Positions 34,076 to 43,611 of a DNA stretch of 64,000 nt are shown piece by piece. Every line of letters starts with the position of its first letter. Within the stretch, counting starts at the first letter, position 1. The notes beneath the pieces are model-generated. The model was not told the origin of the DNA. It made no database searches and saw nothing but the letters and a program-made list of their open reading frames with translations. A program made the translations under genes and the position numbers. The stretch comes from an uncultured Isosphaeraceae bacterium (GTDB taxonomy: Bacteria > Planctomycetota > Planctomycetia > Isosphaerales > Isosphaeraceae). The stretch spans positions 62,001 to 126,000 of the forward strand of contig CAMFLR010000001.1 in NCBI GenBank assembly GCA_945957605.1, given 5' to 3'.

Positions 34076-37063
34076 ATGTCCGACGTGCGATTCGGGGGCA
34101 TTTTGCCGCAGATTCACCAGCTATTCGCGGCCGGATCCAACGCGGGCCTCTCCGATGGTGTCCTCCTGCGCCGCTATTGCACTCAACGCGACGAATCGGC
34201 ATTCGCCACCCTTGTCGGCCGTCACGGCGCGATGGTGCTGACGGTCTGCCGCAACGTGCTTCGCAGTGAAATTGACGCGGAGGATGCCTTCCAGGCGGTT
34301 TTTCTCATCCTCGTCCGCAAGGCCGGCTCAATTCGCGTCGATGACTCACTCGGCGGTTGGTTGCATGGCGTTGCGTATCGCGTGGCCGTTCGTGCGAGCG
34401 AACAAGCAGCCCGACGAGGAACGCGCGAACGCGATGGACTTGAAACGCGCGACTGGGCGGATTCAACCGCAAGTCCAGCGTCCGACCCGCGTCTCGCTGC
34501 GCTTCACGAAGAAATTGCGCGGTTGCCAGGTTCGCAGCGACAGGCATTGGTGCTCTGCTGGCTCGAAGGCAAGACGCAGGTTGAAGCCGCGCAGGAGATA
34601 GGTTGTGGCGAGGCGACGGTCAGACGCAGAGTGGCCGATGCCCGTGAACGGCTGAAGGAGCGACTCGATAGCCGTCATCAAATTGGCGATGCGGCCCCTG
34701 CTCTACTCGCTTTGCCGACAAGGCTCGCCGAATCGACCCTCGCAGTGGCTGCCGGACCACTCAACGCGCTGGCTGCTTCGATATTGAATGAAATGAAGGT
34801 TGCACACCTGGCACGCGTTGGGTTGATGGGATGTCTGGTGGTTGCTGCAGTGGCGGGCGGAATTATCCTGGCGGCACGACGGAGTACGCCTGACTTGCCG
34901 CCGATGCAGCAACCGGCGGCCGAGCCGATGCCCGTTGCTGATGCCGGTGAAATCAAAACGGCACTCGACCCGGGTGATTTTCACGTCCTCGGCAAAGTGG
35001 TTGGCCCCGACGGCGGACCCGTCGCGGGGGCCGTGATTTATCTCCGTGCGTTCGGCGTGCAAGTTCCCGCTCGCAAGGCGGTGACCGATGCCAGCGGCAC
35101 GTTCCAGTTTCAGACCAAACGTGAGCTTGGGATCAAGATGACCGAAACCGCCCCCAACCACTACGTTGGCGGGCCGTTCCCGGATGAGGAGGAAATCCGC
35201 CACGTCAAGCCACGCATCGTCGCGGTTGCGCCTGGATTTGGTTTCGGCTTGCTCGAACCTGGCGACGGGGTGACGCTGAAGCTCACCGCCGACGAGCCGA
35301 TTTCGGGTCGCGTGACCGATCGTGATGGCAAGCCTGTTTCCGGAGCTGACGTTCGCGTGCGAAATATTTACTGGCCCAAGCACGCGGATGATCCGCTCAA
35401 TGTGCTCAGCCATTTCTATCGGCCTGAACCGCAGGGCGACAAGGCTCCGGAGGGGCCAGCAACGCTCGATCCCTGGCTGGCGACCGTCAAATCCGCGGCG
35501 CATCTTCCCGACCTCACGAGGGCCACGGCGCAATCGCTGTCGGCACTCGCGAATTCGCTCGGCGATATTCCCGCCGCACACGCGCCGATCGTTCATCCGG
35601 TAAAAACCGATGCCGACGGGCGATTCAAATTGATTGGTCTCGGCAAGGAACGCGTCGGCGAGCTGATTATTGATGGCAAACCAGGATTCGCCTCAAATCT
35701 TCTTCTCGCGGCGTCCCGACCGATCGATCAATCGCTGCGAGTTCCCGGCGAGCCCCAGAAAACCAAAGGACTGATCGCGAATCCAAGTGCTGATGTGCTC
35801 ATCTTCGGTAATCGGGCCGACGTGGTGCTCGAACCCGGCTGCGACGTTGAAGGAACGGTCAGCGATCCCGCGTCGCATTTGCCGCTGAGAGGGGTTCGCG
35901 TGATAGGTCCGTGGATCAATCGCCTCGAATACCCTGAATTCGACCGCTTCCACGCCACGACCGACGCGTTTGGCCATTACCGAATTTCGGGTCTGCCGTT
36001 ACGAAAGGATCTCGATTTTACTTTCCGAGCACCCGAAAAATCGGCATATATTGGCCGCGAAGTCGATGTTGATACACGAGATGCGGGCGCGCTCAAACAG
36101 GTCGACGTCGCGCTGCCGAAAGGCGTGTGGATTACAGGTAAAGTCGTTGACGATGCGACAGGAGCACCCATCCCCGACGCGTCGATCGAATATCATGTCT
36201 TCAACAATAATCCCTTTCTTCGCAAGGATCTCGAAGCGAAGGTGTTTCCCGACTTCGATGACCATCTTCGGGCGAACGGCGAGGGTGAATTCCGGATCAT
36301 CGCCTATCCCGGCCGGGGGATCGTCGCGGCCTTCTATTCCGGCTATCTCAACGGCATTGGTGCCGAGAAAATCGCCGGATTGGGGCCGAAAGAGTTCGCC
36401 GAGACACTCTTCTCGACGAAGGGTTTTAGCCCGTCGATTCGAAGTACGATCATCGAAGTGAACGTGCCAGAAGGCGCTCAGGATTACACATGCGAACTTC
36501 GGTTGAAGAAGGGGAAGAGCCGTCAAGTTCGCGTGGTTGGTGTCGAGGGCAAGCCGCGCTTCGGGTTCGAGGCGAGCGGTCTGGCCGGTCAAATTGAAAA
36601 CCCGATGACCAAAGTCGAATCCGACCGATTCACAGTGACGAACCTGTTTCCTGGCGAACGCAGGGCAGTGATTGCCCGAATTGCGAAGGAGAAGTTAACC
36701 GGAACGGTCGAGGTGCCCGCCGACGATACCACGCCCATTACGCTTAAGCTCCAACCATGGGCGACGCTCAAGGGGCGGCTCGTCGACGACGCGGGTAAAC
36801 CGTTGTTCAAGGCGATCGATATCGAGCTAGAAGACGGCAAATTGCCGATCCACACGTTCAACGGCCGCAATTATGATCGCGAGGAGTTTTCGGTTTCGCC
36901 TGATGGGACGTTTGAGTTAATTGGTCTCGTTCCCGGTGCAACGTATCGGCTGTATGCCATTCTGGGTAACGCGCAGGTCCTTGGTTACGTGACGGCTGCG
37001 TTCGAACTCAAACCGGGTGAGATTCGCGAGCTTGGAGACGTCCACGTAATTACCAAGAAGTAG
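34076..37063 (+). CDS. Membrane-tethered ECF sigma factor fused to carboxypeptidase-regulatory-like repeats (995 aa)
   Basis: Residues ~1-195 are an ECF sigma factor: region 2 with AEDAFQAVFLILVRKAGSIR (~68-87) and region 4 with LPGSQRQALVLCWLEGKTQ and an HTH ending RRRVADARERL (~150-193). One membrane helix lies at ~247-267 (VGLMGCLVVAAVAGGIILAA). The outer ~725 residues contain at least five beta-sandwich units of the carboxypeptidase-regulatory/CnaB-like type, starting near residues 301 (VLGKVVGPDGGPVAGA), 408 (ISGRVTDRDGKPVSGA), 590, 686 (ITGKVVDDATGAPIPDA) and 898. ATG 34076 has AGAGGG upstream. The plan implies an external signal that frees or modulates the sigma part without a separate anti-sigma factor; this is inference. 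Similar long ECF proteins (ECF01-Gob type) are known in planctomycetes. Confidence 0.9.
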   Translation: MSDVRFGGILPQIHQLFAAGSNAGLSDGVLLRRYCTQRDESAFATLVGRHGAMVLTVCRNVLRSEIDAEDAFQAVFLILVRKAGSIRVDDSLGGWLHGVAYRVAVRASEQAARRGTRERDGLETRDWADSTASPASDPRLAALHEEIARLPGSQRQALVLCWLEGKTQVEAAQEIGCGEATVRRRVADARERLKERLDSRHQIGDAAPALLALPTRLAESTLAVAAGPLNALAASILNEMKVAHLARVGLMGCLVVAAVAGGIILAARRSTPDLPPMQQPAAEPMPVADAGEIKTALDPGDFHVLGKVVGPDGGPVAGAVIYLRAFGVQVPARKAVTDASGTFQFQTKRELGIKMTETAPNHYVGGPFPDEEEIRHVKPRIVAVAPGFGFGLLEPGDGVTLKLTADEPISGRVTDRDGKPVSGADVRVRNIYWPKHADDPLNVLSHFYRPEPQGDKAPEGPATLDPWLATVKSAAHLPDLTRATAQSLSALANSLGDIPAAHAPIVHPVKTDADGRFKLIGLGKERVGELIIDGKPGFASNLLLAASRPIDQSLRVPGEPQKTKGLIANPSADVLIFGNRADVVLEPGCDVEGTVSDPASHLPLRGVRVIGPWINRLEYPEFDRFHATTDAFGHYRISGLPLRKDLDFTFRAPEKSAYIGREVDVDTRDAGALKQVDVALPKGVWITGKVVDDATGAPIPDASIEYHVFNNNPFLRKDLEAKVFPDFDDHLRANGEGEFRIIAYPGRGIVAAFYSGYLNGIGAEKIAGLGPKEFAETLFSTKGFSPSIRSTIIEVNVPEGAQDYTCELRLKKGKSRQVRVVGVEGKPRFGFEASGLAGQIENPMTKVESDRFTVTNLFPGERRAVIARIAKEKLTGTVEVPADDTTPITLKLQPWATLKGRLVDDAGKPLFKAIDIELEDGKLPIHTFNGRNYDREEFSVSPDGTFELIGLVPGATYRLYAILGNAQVLGYVTAAFELKPGEIRELGDVHVITKK

Positions 37064-37174: not shown

Positions 37175-39187
37175 TTACTTGCCGAGTTCCTTCTTCAAGT
37201 CGGCAAGTTCCTTCATGAGGGCGTCGATTCGTGCTTCGGACGTCGGCCTGTCGGCAGGTTTTGTCGGGACGGTGGGAGTTGTTGAGGCAGGCACAGTTGG
37301 AGTCAATGGGACTTCGGGATAGACGATCAGTCGATCACCGGCCAGGAGTTGGTAGTTGGTAGTCGACTCACCCTTCTCGACGATCTCTCGAAGATCGACC
37401 CCCAATGTTTGTTCTTTGTGGTTGAACTCAGAAGCGGGGCGGATCAGGCGTATTTTCGCTCCTATCGACGCAAGCTGCAAACCGCCTGCTCGGTTGATCC
37501 CGTCGAGCACGGTGTCGTGGCCGGTGATCGTGAATCGACCTGGCGAGCCGACGGCTCCTTGAACGTAGTACGCCTTGCTGTTGAATTCGGCGATGTCGAC
37601 GAAGACGTAATGTGTTCTGGACGGGGGAACATCGATGTTCTTCTGCGTCTCTTCGTCGAAGGTCCTCAGGCCGAGGGCGCGGTCGGTGAGGTACTCGCGC
37701 AGGTGGGTAACGATCTTTTCCTTCACCTGCATGAGATTGAGGCCGGCGACACTCACCTCATCATAAAAACCCAGGCTGATTTTGCCATCGGGCCTGATGA
37801 GATGCTTGCCCTTAATCGGTCGCCCCGGCAGAGCCTCGAGAACTTCGACGACCAAAACGTCCGACGGTTCCACTTTGTATACGGGCGAGATTCTCATGGC
37901 ACCCTCTCTGGGGAGTGGAGCCTTGACGGGTGCCGAAACGACTGGCTGGTCCTGAACCGGGACAACCTTGAAATCTGACGGTTCAATGACGCTCTTCATC
38001 TCCTTCTTAATTGCATCACGTCGCGTTTGAATTTGGTCGAGGGCCTTGTGGAATCGTTGCGTGCGATCGGTCGAAATGAGCAAACTCCGCTCGGCGCTGC
38101 GGACTGCCACTTTCAGTTCATCAAGCCTTTGAGTCGCTGCAGCAATTTCATCCTCCGAAGCGGCCAGGGACTTCCGATAGTCCGCCTCCTGATCATCGAG
38201 GGTTTTTAGCTCGTCGACACCTGATGCGTGGTTCGACGCAGCCTTCACCGGGTAAGTGATGTTGATGTCGAACTCAGTTTTCGAATCGGGTGAGTTCGCC
38301 TTTGCAGCCGGGTTTTCTTGTTTGGCGGCAACCTTGTCCCTGCCTCCGTCGCCCGCTGCACCGGTCGTATAAGCTCCGACGCAAATCACCAGCAGCGCCA
38401 TCGCGCTGAATTTGAGCTTCGAGAGGAACATGGTCTTCAAAACTCCATTGGCCAGTGTTGCGGCTGGGATGACCGCAGCGCGTCCCGCAGCGAAACCGAT
38501 CGCGGCAGATACCGTTCGTTCGAGGAGCGAGGCGGAAACTGGGTTGGGGCGGAATACCACGGCGAGCGTTCCCGAAGAGACAGCCAGGCCGCGTCGGGTG
38601 AGACGCGAATGAAGGAGCTTCTTTGCCCGGACGAGCCGGCCTTTCACAGATCCCAAGGGCCAGCACAGCCGCCGCGCGGCTTCTTCATGCGTCAAACCAT
38701 CGAGATAGCAGAGCATGACCACGTTGCGGTATGGTTTGGGGAGACTGTCTAGCTCGTCATGAACAGCGATCGCCATTTCTCGACGTTCGTGTTCATCGCT
38801 CGGCCGGTCGTCGTTCACGTCGATGGGGGCAACCGTCCGCCGGTTTCTCCGATCGAGATCGGCACCCGCACGGAGGGCAAGCCGTCGCGTCACGGTGTAA
38901 AGCCAGCGACCGAGGGAATCATCAACGCGGATCGACCCAGCCTTACGGACCAGAACCAGGAACGCCGCCTGGAATACGTCTTCCGCTTCATGCGGATCGG
39001 CGATGATTCGTCGGCAAACCCCCAGCACCATCGGTCCATGGCGATCCACCAAGGCTGTGAACGCGACTTCATCGCGATTCAACGCGAACCGCTGGAGCAA
39101 CTGCCGGTCGGAAAGCCCGATGACGGTCCCCGTCTCGAACAGGTGCTGAATCTGCTTCAGCGCGATGCCTCCGAACTCCTTTGGCAT
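37175..39187 (-). CDS. Membrane-tethered ECF sigma factor fused to a polysaccharide-export/SLBB module (670 aa)
   Basis: From ATG 39187 (TTG at 39208 is an alternative). Residues ~1-198 are an ECF sigma factor (AEDVFQAAFLVLVRKAGSIR at 68-87; region 4 PKPYRNVVMLCYLDGLTHEE with SVKGRLVRAKKLL at ~150-192). One membrane helix is at ~257-276. A coiled coil follows (~325-400). Residues ~437-505 match a Wza-type polysaccharide-export domain (YKVEPSDVLVVEVLEALPG, LIRPDGKISLGFYDEVSVAG), and ~527-590 an SLBB domain (YVQGAVGSPGRFTITGHDTV, INRAGGLQ), closing with LLAGDRLIVYP. The C-terminus is a Pro/Thr linker and a short helix. SLBB domains normally bind glycans in capsule export. A sensor role for envelope polysaccharide controlling the attached sigma factor is my inference. 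Confidence 0.9.
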   Translation of the reverse strand: MPKEFGGIALKQIQHLFETGTVIGLSDRQLLQRFALNRDEVAFTALVDRHGPMVLGVCRRIIADPHEAEDVFQAAFLVLVRKAGSIRVDDSLGRWLYTVTRRLALRAGADLDRRNRRTVAPIDVNDDRPSDEHERREMAIAVHDELDSLPKPYRNVVMLCYLDGLTHEEAARRLCWPLGSVKGRLVRAKKLLHSRLTRRGLAVSSGTLAVVFRPNPVSASLLERTVSAAIGFAAGRAAVIPAATLANGVLKTMFLSKLKFSAMALLVICVGAYTTGAAGDGGRDKVAAKQENPAAKANSPDSKTEFDINITYPVKAASNHASGVDELKTLDDQEADYRKSLAASEDEIAAATQRLDELKVAVRSAERSLLISTDRTQRFHKALDQIQTRRDAIKKEMKSVIEPSDFKVVPVQDQPVVSAPVKAPLPREGAMRISPVYKVEPSDVLVVEVLEALPGRPIKGKHLIRPDGKISLGFYDEVSVAGLNLMQVKEKIVTHLREYLTDRALGLRTFDEETQKNIDVPPSRTHYVFVDIAEFNSKAYYVQGAVGSPGRFTITGHDTVLDGINRAGGLQLASIGAKIRLIRPASEFNHKEQTLGVDLREIVEKGESTTNYQLLAGDRLIVYPEVPLTPTVPASTTPTVPTKPADRPTSEARIDALMKELADLKKELGK

Positions 39188-39746: not shown

Positions 39747-40955
39747 ATGAGTCGCCGCGTTGGACTTTGGTTGATTGGTGCTTTTGGCGGCGTCGGAACG
39801 ACGATCACGCTCGGCCTGACCGCGATGGCGAAGGGAATCTCGGGCCGCACCGGCTTGGTGACGGATCTACCGCTCTTTGAAGGACTTCCGCTCCCCGAAC
39901 CCGCCGAGTTCATCATCGGCGGCCACGACATTCGCCAGACTACTTTCGTAGAGGCCGCCGAAGAGTTTCGCGCCAACTCGGGCACGTTTAGCGGCGAACT
40001 GATTCAGGCATGCAAGGCCGAATTGCTCGCAGCGAGCGAACGCGTTCGCCCTGGGACCAAGCTCGGTTCAGGTGCTTCGATCGCGCGAATGGGTGACTGG
40101 GGCGACAACAAGCCGGCCCGCACAGCCAAGGAAGCCATCGATCGCATCAGCGCCGACCTCGCGGCGTTTGTGGACACCGAAAAGCTCGATCACCTGATCG
40201 TCCTGTCCGTCGCGTCGACCGAACCGCCGTTCCTGATCGGCGACGTCCACGACAACTGGGACACGCTGAACGCCGCGCTCGCGACCGGCGGGGCCGAACT
40301 GCTCCCATCCAGCTCGCTCTACGCGATCGCCGCTCTTCGTGCGGGGCACTCGTACCTCAACTTCACGCCGAGCCTGGGGGCGTCGATTCCCGCCCTCTAT
40401 CAGTTTGCCGAAAGCACCGGCGCGTTGCACGGCGGCAAGGACGGCAAGACTGGCGAAACGCTGATGAAGACCGTGCTGGCGCCGATGTTCGCCGCGCGGA
40501 ATCTTGAGGTTATGAGCTGGGTCGGCCACAACATTTTCGGCAATCGCGATGGTGTGATTCTCGACGATCCTGTGAACAAGTCGTCAAAGGTTGATACGAA
40601 GGACCGCGTCGTCACCCAGATTCTCGGCTACAAGCCGAAAACGCTGGTGACGATCGAGTACATCCCCGACATGGGCGACTGGAAAACCGCGTGGGATCAC
40701 ATCCACTTCCGCGGTTTCCTCGACACCAAGATGACGCTGCAGTTCACCTGGCAAGGCTGCGATAGCCTGCTAGCGGCACCTCTGGCGATCGATCTCGCTC
40801 GATTGACAGACGTCGAAAAAGTCCGCGGCAAGTCGGGCCTGATGAAGCACCTGGCCGCCTTCTTCAAGGGCCCAGAAGGCGTGGGCGAAAACGACTTCTT
40901 CAAGCAAACGACGATGCTCGAAGAGTACGTCGCCAAGGCCAAAGCGAAGAGCTGA
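39747..40955 (+). CDS. ino1: Inositol-3-phosphate synthase
   Basis: 402 residues. The enzyme converts glucose 6-phosphate to 1D-myo-inositol 3-phosphate with NAD. The N-terminal Rossmann loop GAFGGVGTTITLGL is visible, as are NWDTLNAALATGG, YLNFTPSLGASIPAL, the catalytic-domain stretch GKTGETLMKTVLAPMF and HNIFGNRDGVILDDP, all typical of the family. First gene of a four-gene run; the next start is 57 bp downstream, with likely co-transcription. Its product suggests that a cyclitol is the starting unit of the pathway encoded here. Confidence 0.95.
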   Translation: MSRRVGLWLIGAFGGVGTTITLGLTAMAKGISGRTGLVTDLPLFEGLPLPEPAEFIIGGHDIRQTTFVEAAEEFRANSGTFSGELIQACKAELLAASERVRPGTKLGSGASIARMGDWGDNKPARTAKEAIDRISADLAAFVDTEKLDHLIVLSVASTEPPFLIGDVHDNWDTLNAALATGGAELLPSSSLYAIAALRAGHSYLNFTPSLGASIPALYQFAESTGALHGGKDGKTGETLMKTVLAPMFAARNLEVMSWVGHNIFGNRDGVILDDPVNKSSKVDTKDRVVTQILGYKPKTLVTIEYIPDMGDWKTAWDHIHFRGFLDTKMTLQFTWQGCDSLLAAPLAIDLARLTDVEKVRGKSGLMKHLAAFFKGPEGVGENDFFKQTTMLEEYVAKAKAKS

Positions 40956-41012
40956 CGAAGCCGTCGCGCGAATTCACTCTCCTCGAAATCCGCCCCAGAT
41001 CATGAGGCATGC

Positions 41013-41858
41013 ATGCGTCTCGCCTTCAGCACGAATGCGTACTTGAATTTCCCCTTCGAAGAAGCCGCGGCGCGAATCGCCGCGATCGGCTATGAAGGGC
41101 TCGAGTTGATGGCCGACGTGCCGCACGCCTGGCCTGCCTACATGCTTGAAGGCTCGAAGCAAGGAATTCGCGACGCGATGCAGAAAACAGGCCTCACGTT
41201 CTCAAACGTGAACGCCTTCATGATGCACGCGGTTGACGACCATCGACAGCACTTCTGGTACCCCTCGTTCATCGAGCCCGACCCCAACTATCGTCGGGTG
41301 CGCATCGACCACACCAAGCGGGCCCTCACGCTCTGCAAGGAACTTGGTGCGCCCCACATCACGACCGAGCCTGGCGGACCGATCGACCCTTCGCAAACTC
41401 GCCAGCAGGCGATTGATCTGTTCGTCGAGGCACTCAAGCCACTTGCTGAGCATGCGGAAAGCCTGGGCGTTTTGCTCCTGATCGAGCCCGAGCCGGAGCT
41501 CCTGGCCGAAACGACCGATCAATATGTTGAAATCGCCGAACGCGTGAATTCGTCGGCAATTGGTCTAAATTTCGACGTGGGACATGCGTACTGCATGAGC
41601 GAGGACATCCCCGCGCAGATCAAGAAGTTGACGCCGCACATCAAGCATTACCACTTTGAGGATATTGCACCGACTCGTGTGCACCATCATATGATTCCCG
41701 GTCTCGGGGCGATCAATTTCCCCGAGGTGGTCGATGCGATCAAGGCGTCGGGCTACGACGGGTGGATCACGGTCGAGTTGTACCCGAATATTGATGATCC
41801 CGACGGCGCGGCGAAGCGAGCTTACGAGGTTTTGAAGCCGCTCGTCAAAGGAAAGTAA
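41013..41858 (+). CDS. Sugar-phosphate isomerase/epimerase-like TIM-barrel protein
   Basis: 281 residues of the AP-endonuclease-2/xylose-isomerase-like fold. The start MRLAFSTNAYLNFPFEEAA and IGYEGLELMADVPHAW fit strand 1 and 2. Metal-site residues are likely in LLIEPEPELLAET, INFDVGHAYC (seen as LNFDVGHAYC), HIKHYHFEDI and WITVELYP, which place Glu, Asp, His and Glu in the family positions. The stop is separated from the GTG of the next gene by one base, indicating coupling. It probably isomerises or oxidises the inositol-derived intermediate, but the substrate is not known. Confidence 0.85.
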   Translation: MRLAFSTNAYLNFPFEEAAARIAAIGYEGLELMADVPHAWPAYMLEGSKQGIRDAMQKTGLTFSNVNAFMMHAVDDHRQHFWYPSFIEPDPNYRRVRIDHTKRALTLCKELGAPHITTEPGGPIDPSQTRQQAIDLFVEALKPLAEHAESLGVLLLIEPEPELLAETTDQYVEIAERVNSSAIGLNFDVGHAYCMSEDIPAQIKKLTPHIKHYHFEDIAPTRVHHHMIPGLGAINFPEVVDAIKASGYDGWITVELYPNIDDPDGAAKRAYEVLKPLVKGK

Positions 41859-41859
41859 A

Positions 41860-42741
41860 GTGGCGCTGAAGCCTTACTTTCAGCTCGTGCGGTTGCCGAA
41901 TCTCTTCACGGCAGCCGCCGATCCGCTCGCTGGTTTCTTGATCGCGGGCGGACTGCTGTCGAATCCCGCGAAGTGGCTACCGCTCGTTCTGGCGGGGGTC
42001 TGCCTCTATGCCGCGGGCATGGCCCTCAACGACGTATTCGACTACCAGACCGACCTGCGCGAGCGTCCCAGCCGGCCGCTTCCTTCCGGCCGCGCATCGC
42101 GCTGGATCGCGGCGGTGCTTGGCTGGGATCTGCTCTTTGTCGGACCGGTGCTGGCGGCAGTCGCGGGCCCGCGCAGCCTGATCGTGGCCATCGCACTTGC
42201 GGCTTGCGTGCTGATCTATGACGCGGGACGAGTTCGGCCGTGGCGGCGCCCTGAAGTCATGGGAGGCTGCCGCGGATTGAACCTCTTGCTGGGCATGAGC
42301 GCGTCTGCCGATCTCGGCGGCCCGTCTGGCTGGGCGATGGCGGTCGCCTTCGCGATCTTCGTGATCGGCGTCACGTATATCAGCGGCGACGAGGTCCATC
42401 ACGATCAGTCGCAGGGCGTCAAAGCCGGCATGATCCTTCAAAACGTCGCGATGCTCGCACTCGTCGCGGCGGCTGCGTGGGTTCGGGAATCGAGCATTGC
42501 ACTCGGCGTCGGCGTGGCCGTCTTCGCGACTGTTGCGTTTATTGTGAATCGTGCCGATCTTCGTGCGATTCGCAGGCCCGAGCCGTCGACGATTCAAAAC
42601 GCCGTCAAAACCGGCGTGATCATGCTGATCTGGCTCGACGTGGGATTGGTATCAATCGCAGCAGGCCCGTTGCTCGCCCTTCCCGTCGCCGCGCTCTGGA
42701 TTCCGGCATTCGTGCTGGGCAAGTGGCTTTACTCCACCTGA
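41860..42741 (+). CDS. UbiA-like prenyltransferase (EboC / SCO3242-like)
   Basis: 293 residues starting with GTG 41860; AAGGAAAG upstream overlaps the preceding gene end. About eight membrane helices. The first Asp-rich motif is NDVFDYQTD (residues 57-65), followed by the family's RPSRPLPSG. The second is in YISGDEVHHDQSQG. Both are needed to bind Mg-prenyl diphosphate, so an active transferase is likely. Placement directly beside inositol phosphate synthase and TIM-barrel isomerases matches, as I recall, the Streptomyces SCO3241-3243 arrangement and relatives of the ebo cluster. The acceptor is probably a cyclitol-derived molecule (inference). Confidence 0.87.
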   Translation: MALKPYFQLVRLPNLFTAAADPLAGFLIAGGLLSNPAKWLPLVLAGVCLYAAGMALNDVFDYQTDLRERPSRPLPSGRASRWIAAVLGWDLLFVGPVLAAVAGPRSLIVAIALAACVLIYDAGRVRPWRRPEVMGGCRGLNLLLGMSASADLGGPSGWAMAVAFAIFVIGVTYISGDEVHHDQSQGVKAGMILQNVAMLALVAAAAWVRESSIALGVGVAVFATVAFIVNRADLRAIRRPEPSTIQNAVKTGVIMLIWLDVGLVSIAAGPLLALPVAALWIPAFVLGKWLYST

Positions 42742-42768
42742 GGCCGCCTCACTCTTAACGGTGCATTG

Positions 42769-43611
42769 ATGCGTCTCGGCTATAACACCAACGGCTTGCC
42801 GCACCACCGTTTGCTCGATGCCATCGACTTTCTCGCCGAGGAAGGATTCGAGTCGGTCGCGCTCACGCTCGACGCGGGCGCACTTGACCCCTATCAGGAC
42901 GCCGCCGACCTCGCGCGCCAGGTGGCCATGGTCCGCGAGCGGCTTGATGCTCACGGGATGATTCGGGTGGTCGAGACCGGGGCGCGGTTCCTGCTCAATC
43001 CGCGCAAGAAGCACGATCCCACCTTGATGGATCCCGACCCCGCGCGACGAGCATTGCGCATCGATTTCCTGAACCGGTCGATCGACCTCTGCGACGCCCT
43101 CGGCGCCGAGGCCGTGTCATTCTGGTCTGGTGCACTCCCTGACTCGGCCAGCGAGGATCAGGCGTTCGACCGGATTGTGGATGCCCTTCAACCGGTGATC
43201 TCTCACGCGGAGTCAAAGCGGGTGCGGCTCGCGTTCGAGCCTGAGCCAGGGATGTTCATCGACACCTTTGCGCGGTTCGCCCGCCTCGACGAAAGAATTC
43301 GGCATCCGCTCTTCGATCTCACCGTGGACATCGGCCACGTTCATTGTCTTGAACCCGGCGACACGGCGAGCCACCTTGGTCCCTGGGCGGGACGTATTGC
43401 TAATATCCACATTGAGGACATGAGACGAGGCGTGCATGATCACTTGCTGTTTGGCGAGGGGACGATCGACTTTCCCTCGGTGATCTCTGCGCTTCGCGAC
43501 GCTCAATTCAAAGGTGGGCTCAACGTTGAACTGAGCCGACACGGCCACATGGCGGTCGAAGCTGTCCGCCGGTCAGCAGCATTTCTTAAACCTTTGCTGG
43601 CACATCGCTAA
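42769..43611 (+). CDS. Second sugar-phosphate isomerase/epimerase-like TIM-barrel protein
   Basis: 280 residues from ATG 42769, just after a TTG that could also start. It has the same fold as the product of 41013-41858 (RLGYNTNGLPHHRLLDAI; VALTLDAGALDPY; RLAFEPEPGMFIDT; LTVDIGHVHCLEPGD; IANIHIEDMRRGVHDH; GLNVELSRHGH), with the metal-ligand positions kept. The two copies differ widely outside these motifs, so they likely act on successive intermediates. It lies 27 bp after the prenyltransferase gene. The opening does not match the start I know for EboE, so I do not use that name. Confidence 0.84.
   Translation: MRLGYNTNGLPHHRLLDAIDFLAEEGFESVALTLDAGALDPYQDAADLARQVAMVRERLDAHGMIRVVETGARFLLNPRKKHDPTLMDPDPARRALRIDFLNRSIDLCDALGAEAVSFWSGALPDSASEDQAFDRIVDALQPVISHAESKRVRLAFEPEPGMFIDTFARFARLDERIRHPLFDLTVDIGHVHCLEPGDTASHLGPWAGRIANIHIEDMRRGVHDHLLFGEGTIDFPSVISALRDAQFKGGLNVELSRHGHMAVEAVRRSAAFLKPLLAHR

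Follow-up and report, generated by a model that had tools for sequence, protein, structure and literature searches.

A predicted membrane-tethered ECF sigma factor with a captured OPX module and a candidate nested translation start in an Isosphaeraceae bacterium

We analyzed a window of 64,000 nt from an uncultured Isosphaeraceae bacterium, and examined an open reading frame (ORF) on its minus strand (37175..39187) that begins with an ATG and encodes 670 amino acids. From the N-terminus, the ORF contains an ECF sigma domain, a linker, a membrane helix, a coiled coil, a Poly_export domain, an SLBB domain and a short C-terminal coiled coil, all coordinates within the ORF referring to the minus strand. 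Sigma-70 region 2 spans residues 46-110 (38858..39052; Sigma70_r2, PF04542, 1.2e-12) and region 4 spans residues 141-192 (38612..38767; Sigma70_r4_2, PF08281, 2.6e-12). Region 3 is absent, as expected of an ECF sigma factor, and NCBIfam assigned the ORF to sigma70-ECF (7.4e-25). The next part, from residue 200 to 251 (38435..38590), aligned with 140 relatives as the conserved linker of tailed planctomycete ECFs, and terminates in an L-x-x-G-V-L-x-x motif. It is followed by a membrane helix or signal-sequence-like segment at residues 252-276 (38360..38434), which hydropathy placed at about 253-271/276. A long coiled-coil helix occupies residues 324-401 (37985..38218) and also gave weak coiled-coil Pfam matches. 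The Poly_export domain covers residues 435-502 (37682..37885; PF02563, 1.6e-10), and the SLBB domain covers residues 538-622 (37322..37576; SLBB_2, PF22461, 2.6e-6); the latter matched Wza in a phmmer search of the PDB (6.5e-8). All four Pfam matches exceed their gathering scores, SLBB_2 barely so (27.9 bits vs a cut-off of 27), and the older SLBB model PF10531 stayed below threshold (17.9 vs 27). The short C-terminal coiled coil (residues 650-669, 37181..37240) was recognized in the AF2 model and by sequence comparison; it resembles that of other fusions and of sigma-free partner genes, and the same comparison revealed none in the free OPX lipoprotein.

The AF2 model, built from relatives in the window and in named genomes, contains a helix from residue 240 to 278 across the predicted membrane segment, a 78-residue helix from 324 to 401 and a terminal helix from 650 to 669. 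It is confident for sigma region 2 and for Poly_export (pLDDT about 90), and weak for the SLBB part, whose pLDDT of about 55 is too low for judging surface residues. Foldseek comparison of the model with the PDB returned the ECF sigma factors AlgU, SigW and E. coli sigmaE, and the OPX proteins Wza and class-3 WzaB (9n9a). The architecture thus agrees with the original prediction made from the sequence, which had described sigma regions 2 and 4, a membrane helix at residues 257-276, a coiled coil and a Wza-type export and SLBB module at residues 430-630 in one frame, and had named domain search and structure prediction as checks. An N-in/C-out topology of the full-length chain is likely, because basic residues lie on the N-terminal side of the helix and the tail is homologous to exported lipoproteins. 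A promoter-directing function of the predicted sigma domain is consistent with the residues conserved among its relatives and with the dN/dS values given below.

A plus-strand row of genes (39747-43611) diverges from the studied gene; it encodes a myo-inositol-1-phosphate synthase, two TIM-barrel proteins resembling xylose isomerase and a UbiA prenyltransferase, and presumably resembles an ebo-type cluster. On the other side, a second tailed ECF gene (34076-37063, plus strand; 995 aa) lies tail-to-tail with the studied gene; its product has four CarboxypepD_reg stretches, and the Met ahead of its helix has no recognizable Shine-Dalgarno (SD) sequence. Neither Pfam scans around the studied gene nor the conserved neighbors of its fusion relatives, namely an FAA hydrolase, a Uma2-type protein and an enolase, included polysaccharide or beta-barrel export partner genes. 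The free OPX paralog in the genome of the window has a cytochrome c-type gene beside it. At L045:8302-11989 and at L049:4789-9014, the gene for the free OPX lipoprotein has no polysaccharide genes next to it, its neighbor encoding a large protein of the cytochrome c type with 5 CXXCH motifs.

How often this fusion occurs had been raised by the original prediction. In loci gathered from 45 Isosphaeraceae genomes, we found 33 genes in which a sigma domain shares one frame with Poly_export, SLBB or both, and by our mapping of loci to genomes they are distributed over 31 of the 45. A hydrophobic helix separates the sigma and OPX parts in all of them except one at the threshold used. The variants include fusions with Poly_export alone or in two copies, an OPX split by a long insert, and an open frame of 1450 codons. 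Outside the family, a search of 398 genomes of the class yielded no fusion among its ~150 best matches, a range in which weaker ones could be missed. Two tandem arrangements were observed: a pair of ECF-OPX fusion genes in one genome (L079:6849-11247, plus strand), and four OPX-like genes (L044, G000:C8:4049-8979), in each of which a long insert parts Poly_export from SLBB.

The fusions were assembled several times from different lineages. On the OPX side, a single fused clade was rejected (p-AU 0.016 in an AU test on a quick tree; deep support in the OPX tree is weak). On the sigma side, the domains of the fusions are placed at several points of the tree, and a single origin is unparsimonious (12 changes, of which the starred branches force at least three). 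One sigma clade of 18 rows, 17 of them fusions, looks like an old ortholog group; the studied fusion falls outside it, and its OPX part is closest by identity (62-66%) to the free lipoprotein of the same genome. Across eight close pairs, dN/dS was 0.10-0.30 for the sigma part and 0.12-0.44 for the OPX part where dS was finite, so that both halves are under purifying selection. The recurrence, the separate tree positions and the dN/dS values together indicate a real fusion that arose repeatedly and is under selection, and the recurrence in 31 of 45 genomes with selection on both halves rules out chance.

The studied gene is a member of a large planctomycete ECF class that combines a conserved linker and helix with interchangeable extracytoplasmic tails. 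Extended-ECF groups of planctomycetes include ECF01-Gob. The linker of the class reads L-x-E-G-V-L-x-x-M after region 4 and then runs into a hydrophobic helix, an arrangement also found in the studied ORF; the helix scored at least 1.6 in 139 of 146 relatives. Tails seen in the class are OPX, HlyD, thioredoxin and CarboxypepD. We examined the 20 strongly matching tailed ECFs in the genome of the window; in the subset scanned with Pfam, the tails comprise OPX, HlyD membrane-fusion, AhpC/TSA thioredoxin and CarboxypepD domains, several tails being without a Pfam match. At L239:5354-7054 (minus strand), a HlyD/CusB membrane-fusion domain is joined via the helix to an ECF sigma, and GAAGGAG precedes the internal ATG; at L282:917-4573 (minus strand), a 1219-aa protein combines an ECF sigma with CarboxypepD_reg and an AhpC/TSA thioredoxin-like domain.

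Directly ahead of the helix, the linker-helix alignment of 140 tailed ECFs contains a near-invariant Met, located within -1 to +3 codons in 134 of them. In the studied gene this is Met253 (ATG at 38429..38431, minus strand), a candidate start for a sigma-free tail product, and an SD-like GGAG lies 11 nt before it (38443..38446, minus strand), weaker than in most relatives. This conserved internal start had been overlooked by the original prediction. We scored SD matches of at least 4, 5 and 6 nt at a spacing of 4-12 nt, and found them before the pre-helix Met in 71, 54 and 41% of the 140 genes, compared with 22, 12 and 6% in synonymous shuffles (maxima of 300: 30, 16 and 12%) and 12, 4 and 1% at other internal Mets; the 140 genes are related, but at such protein distances synonymous change between most of the paralogs should have reached saturation. 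Among the OPX-fused genes, 84% have an SD of at least 4 nt. Furthermore, GC3 drops to 0.32-0.43 at the SD codons vs 0.79 elsewhere. The folding energy in 40 nt is -6.6 at the internal ATG vs -10.0 to -14.7 at least 30 nt away and -8.4 +/- 0.17 in synonymous shuffles; the low mRNA structure near the ATG exceeds what the amino-acid sequence requires. The Met is not merely a conserved residue, as its position shifts by up to 3 codons along with the SD: in genes whose Met lies 2 codons off the usual position, the SD has moved too.

The 140 genes served both to define the motif and to place the Met column, so a hold-out set matters here. It consisted of 29 ECFs, few loci from 18 genomes, of the related family f3, which we take to be probably Gemmataceae, and it was scored by a rule that was set before the results were seen and that uses a hydropathy anchor instead of the alignment column. 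An SD of at least 4, 5 and 6 nt was present in 83, 48 and 34% of these genes vs 20, 9 and 3%. As a control, we used 29 Ser/Thr kinases of the same family with the same layout, N-in with an internal helix: none has an SD of 5 nt or longer, and 28% have the Met. In the class, the internal start and its SD are therefore conserved beyond amino-acid constraint; the studied gene has the ATG and the 4-nt GGAG. About 30% of the class relatives have no recognizable SD at the pre-helix Met, as do, by our reading, 8 of the 20 tailed ECFs in the genome of the window; therefore, the feature may be lost or SD-independent there. Where a fusion adjoins a sigma-free partner gene, three fusions lack the SD and two keep it. 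In the clade of genus g12, the gene after the fusion encodes an OPX protein without a sigma domain, whose start resembles a signal peptide and which has a similar coiled coil at its C-terminus; it looks like the proposed second product encoded separately.

Given the conserved ATG and SD before the helix, their recurrence in the held-out family and the lack of such a signal in kinases with this layout, two proteins are probably made from these genes: a sigma tethered to the membrane, and a tail that lacks the sigma and begins like a signal sequence. For the studied gene, we favor with moderate confidence a membrane-tethered ECF sigma that has captured an OPX (Poly_export-SLBB) module as its extracytoplasmic part, the gene containing a nested translation start. 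We likewise lean towards the more general reading that the tailed ECF genes of Isosphaeraceae and Gemmataceae are nested, each encoding a tethered sigma and, from a ribosome-binding site conserved inside the gene, a sigma-free exported tail that shares the sensor domain. Mechanistically, the full-length chain would be N-in/C-out with the OPX outside and the sigma held inactive at the membrane, and initiation at Met253 would also give a sigma-free tail whose N-terminus, MFLSKLK and then a hydrophobic segment, resembles a signal sequence. The two forms could co-assemble through the OPX domain and the coiled coils, in which case only some subunits of the extracytoplasmic assembly would carry a sigma. 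Trimming and intramembrane cleavage, set off by a change of ligand, polymer or envelope state at the outer assembly, may then free the sigma as in IutY, the proteolytic release being inferred by analogy to that protein (PMC5411451).

A reading to which we give a modest chance is that the gene is a nested operon and not a sensor. The internal start would yield a protein that functions outside the cytoplasm, an OPX in this case and HlyD or thioredoxin in others, the sigma would stand upstream mainly for co-production, and the tethering of the full-length chain would be a side effect or a simple off-state. The start-site signatures before the helix would suit this reading, as would tails made of ordinary exported-protein domains (HlyD membrane fusion, AhpC/TSA thioredoxin and OPX) and the 62% identity of the fused OPX, over the domain, to the lipoprotein paralog resident in the same genome. 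However, the branch of the fused OPX is far longer than that of the paralog (0.69 vs 0.09), and the fused OPX has neither the lipobox nor the C-terminal extension of the paralog. Moreover, conservation of the in-frame join, the linker and the helix among many paralogs points to a role for the full-length chain.

Somewhat less probable, and in our view doubtful, is the model of the original prediction, in which one protein leaves the internal ATG unused and an envelope glycan at the SLBB domain controls the sigma by regulated proteolysis. It can draw on IutY, whose ECF, TM and periplasmic parts make up one chain that is released by the action of Prc and RseP (PMC5411451) and which is also a precedent for the proposed replacement of a sigma/anti-sigma pair, and on the polymer contact predicted for SLBB in OPX proteins (PMC9603273). 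However, the start-site signatures at synonymous positions would need another cause, and the glycan genes that might have been expected beside the fusions did not appear: none is conserved there, which led us to discard a glycan-operon context. Glycan sensing by the fusion is a guess. What stands of the proposed one-protein signal path is the single-chain arrangement of an inner sigma and an outer OPX, and what probably does not is the single product, as the internal start would make two. A further reading, that the SD-like motif and the Met pause the ribosome for membrane insertion of the helix and do not serve initiation, is very unlikely. The signal directly precedes the helix in every case, as pausing would have it, yet the kinase control was negative, the SD spacing tracks the ATG when the ATG moves, and the reduced mRNA structure is centered near the ATG. 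An assembly artefact or a decaying fusion, to which the marginal SLBB match might point, has a negligible probability given its presence in 31 genomes and the purifying selection on both halves in close pairs.

Planctomycetes have exceptionally many ECF sigma factors. A constant sigma-linker-helix unit with interchangeable tails would explain how signals reach many ECFs without anti-sigma partners, and the OPX case is a candidate route from the cell envelope to transcription. The conserved internal start predicts another product, one without the sigma, that does not show in gene annotation. If the nested reading is true, translation would set the copy number of the sigma at the membrane, and sensors would be built by swapping OPX, HlyD or thioredoxin behind the constant unit.

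The closest known systems share parts of this architecture. First, planctomycete ECFs with large C-terminal extensions, such as the WD40-repeat ECFs of Gemmataceae (PMC8567305), come from the same phylum and, like the studied gene, combine an N-terminal ECF sigma with a variable extended C-terminal part in a large paralogous family; the sigma and linker of the studied gene align with Gemmataceae relatives, and its tail differs in being an OPX module. Second, ECF41, ECF42 and ECF56 carry fused C-terminal domains such as SnoaL_2 and TPR (PMC8103513), regulatory parts that, as proposed for the studied gene, take the place of a separate anti-sigma factor; these extensions are soluble and cytoplasmic, whereas a membrane helix intervenes in the studied gene. 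Third, the class 3 OPX proteins, defined by Poly_export-SLBB without Wza_C and exemplified by M. xanthus WzaB (PMC9603273), resemble the tail in having Poly_export followed by at least one SLBB with no outer membrane-spanning helix detected, and WzaB was the Foldseek match noted above; Wza_C (PF18412) had no match in the studied ORF. In contrast to them, the studied module is attached to a sigma via a membrane helix, has a long coiled coil before it and a short one after it, and is not encoded beside polysaccharide or beta-barrel export genes. Most class 3 proteins begin with a signal peptide or lipobox; the studied module has no lipobox, and would gain a signal-like N-terminus only if translation begins at Met253. 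Sigma fusion is not mentioned in that account of OPX proteins (PMC9603273), and, in line with the original prediction, which knew of no described SLBB-coupled ECF, we found neither an OPX-ECF fusion nor an internal start in such genes in the open-access literature searched. At last, IutY of Pseudomonas putida, a single-chain sigma/anti-sigma released by Prc and RseP (PMC5411451), has a cytosolic ECF, one membrane helix and a periplasmic part in one polypeptide, as does the studied gene by its inferred topology. The periplasmic part of IutY is an anti-sigma domain that works with a TonB-dependent receptor, whereas the studied gene has a coiled coil and OPX, with no Pfam match to a FecR-like anti-sigma domain in the ORF and no receptor gene seen adjacent to it. 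Tailed and WD40 planctomycete ECFs (PMC8567305, PMC8103513), the single-chain IutY and class 3 OPX proteins are thus already known, and what is newest in the studied gene is its candidate nested start.
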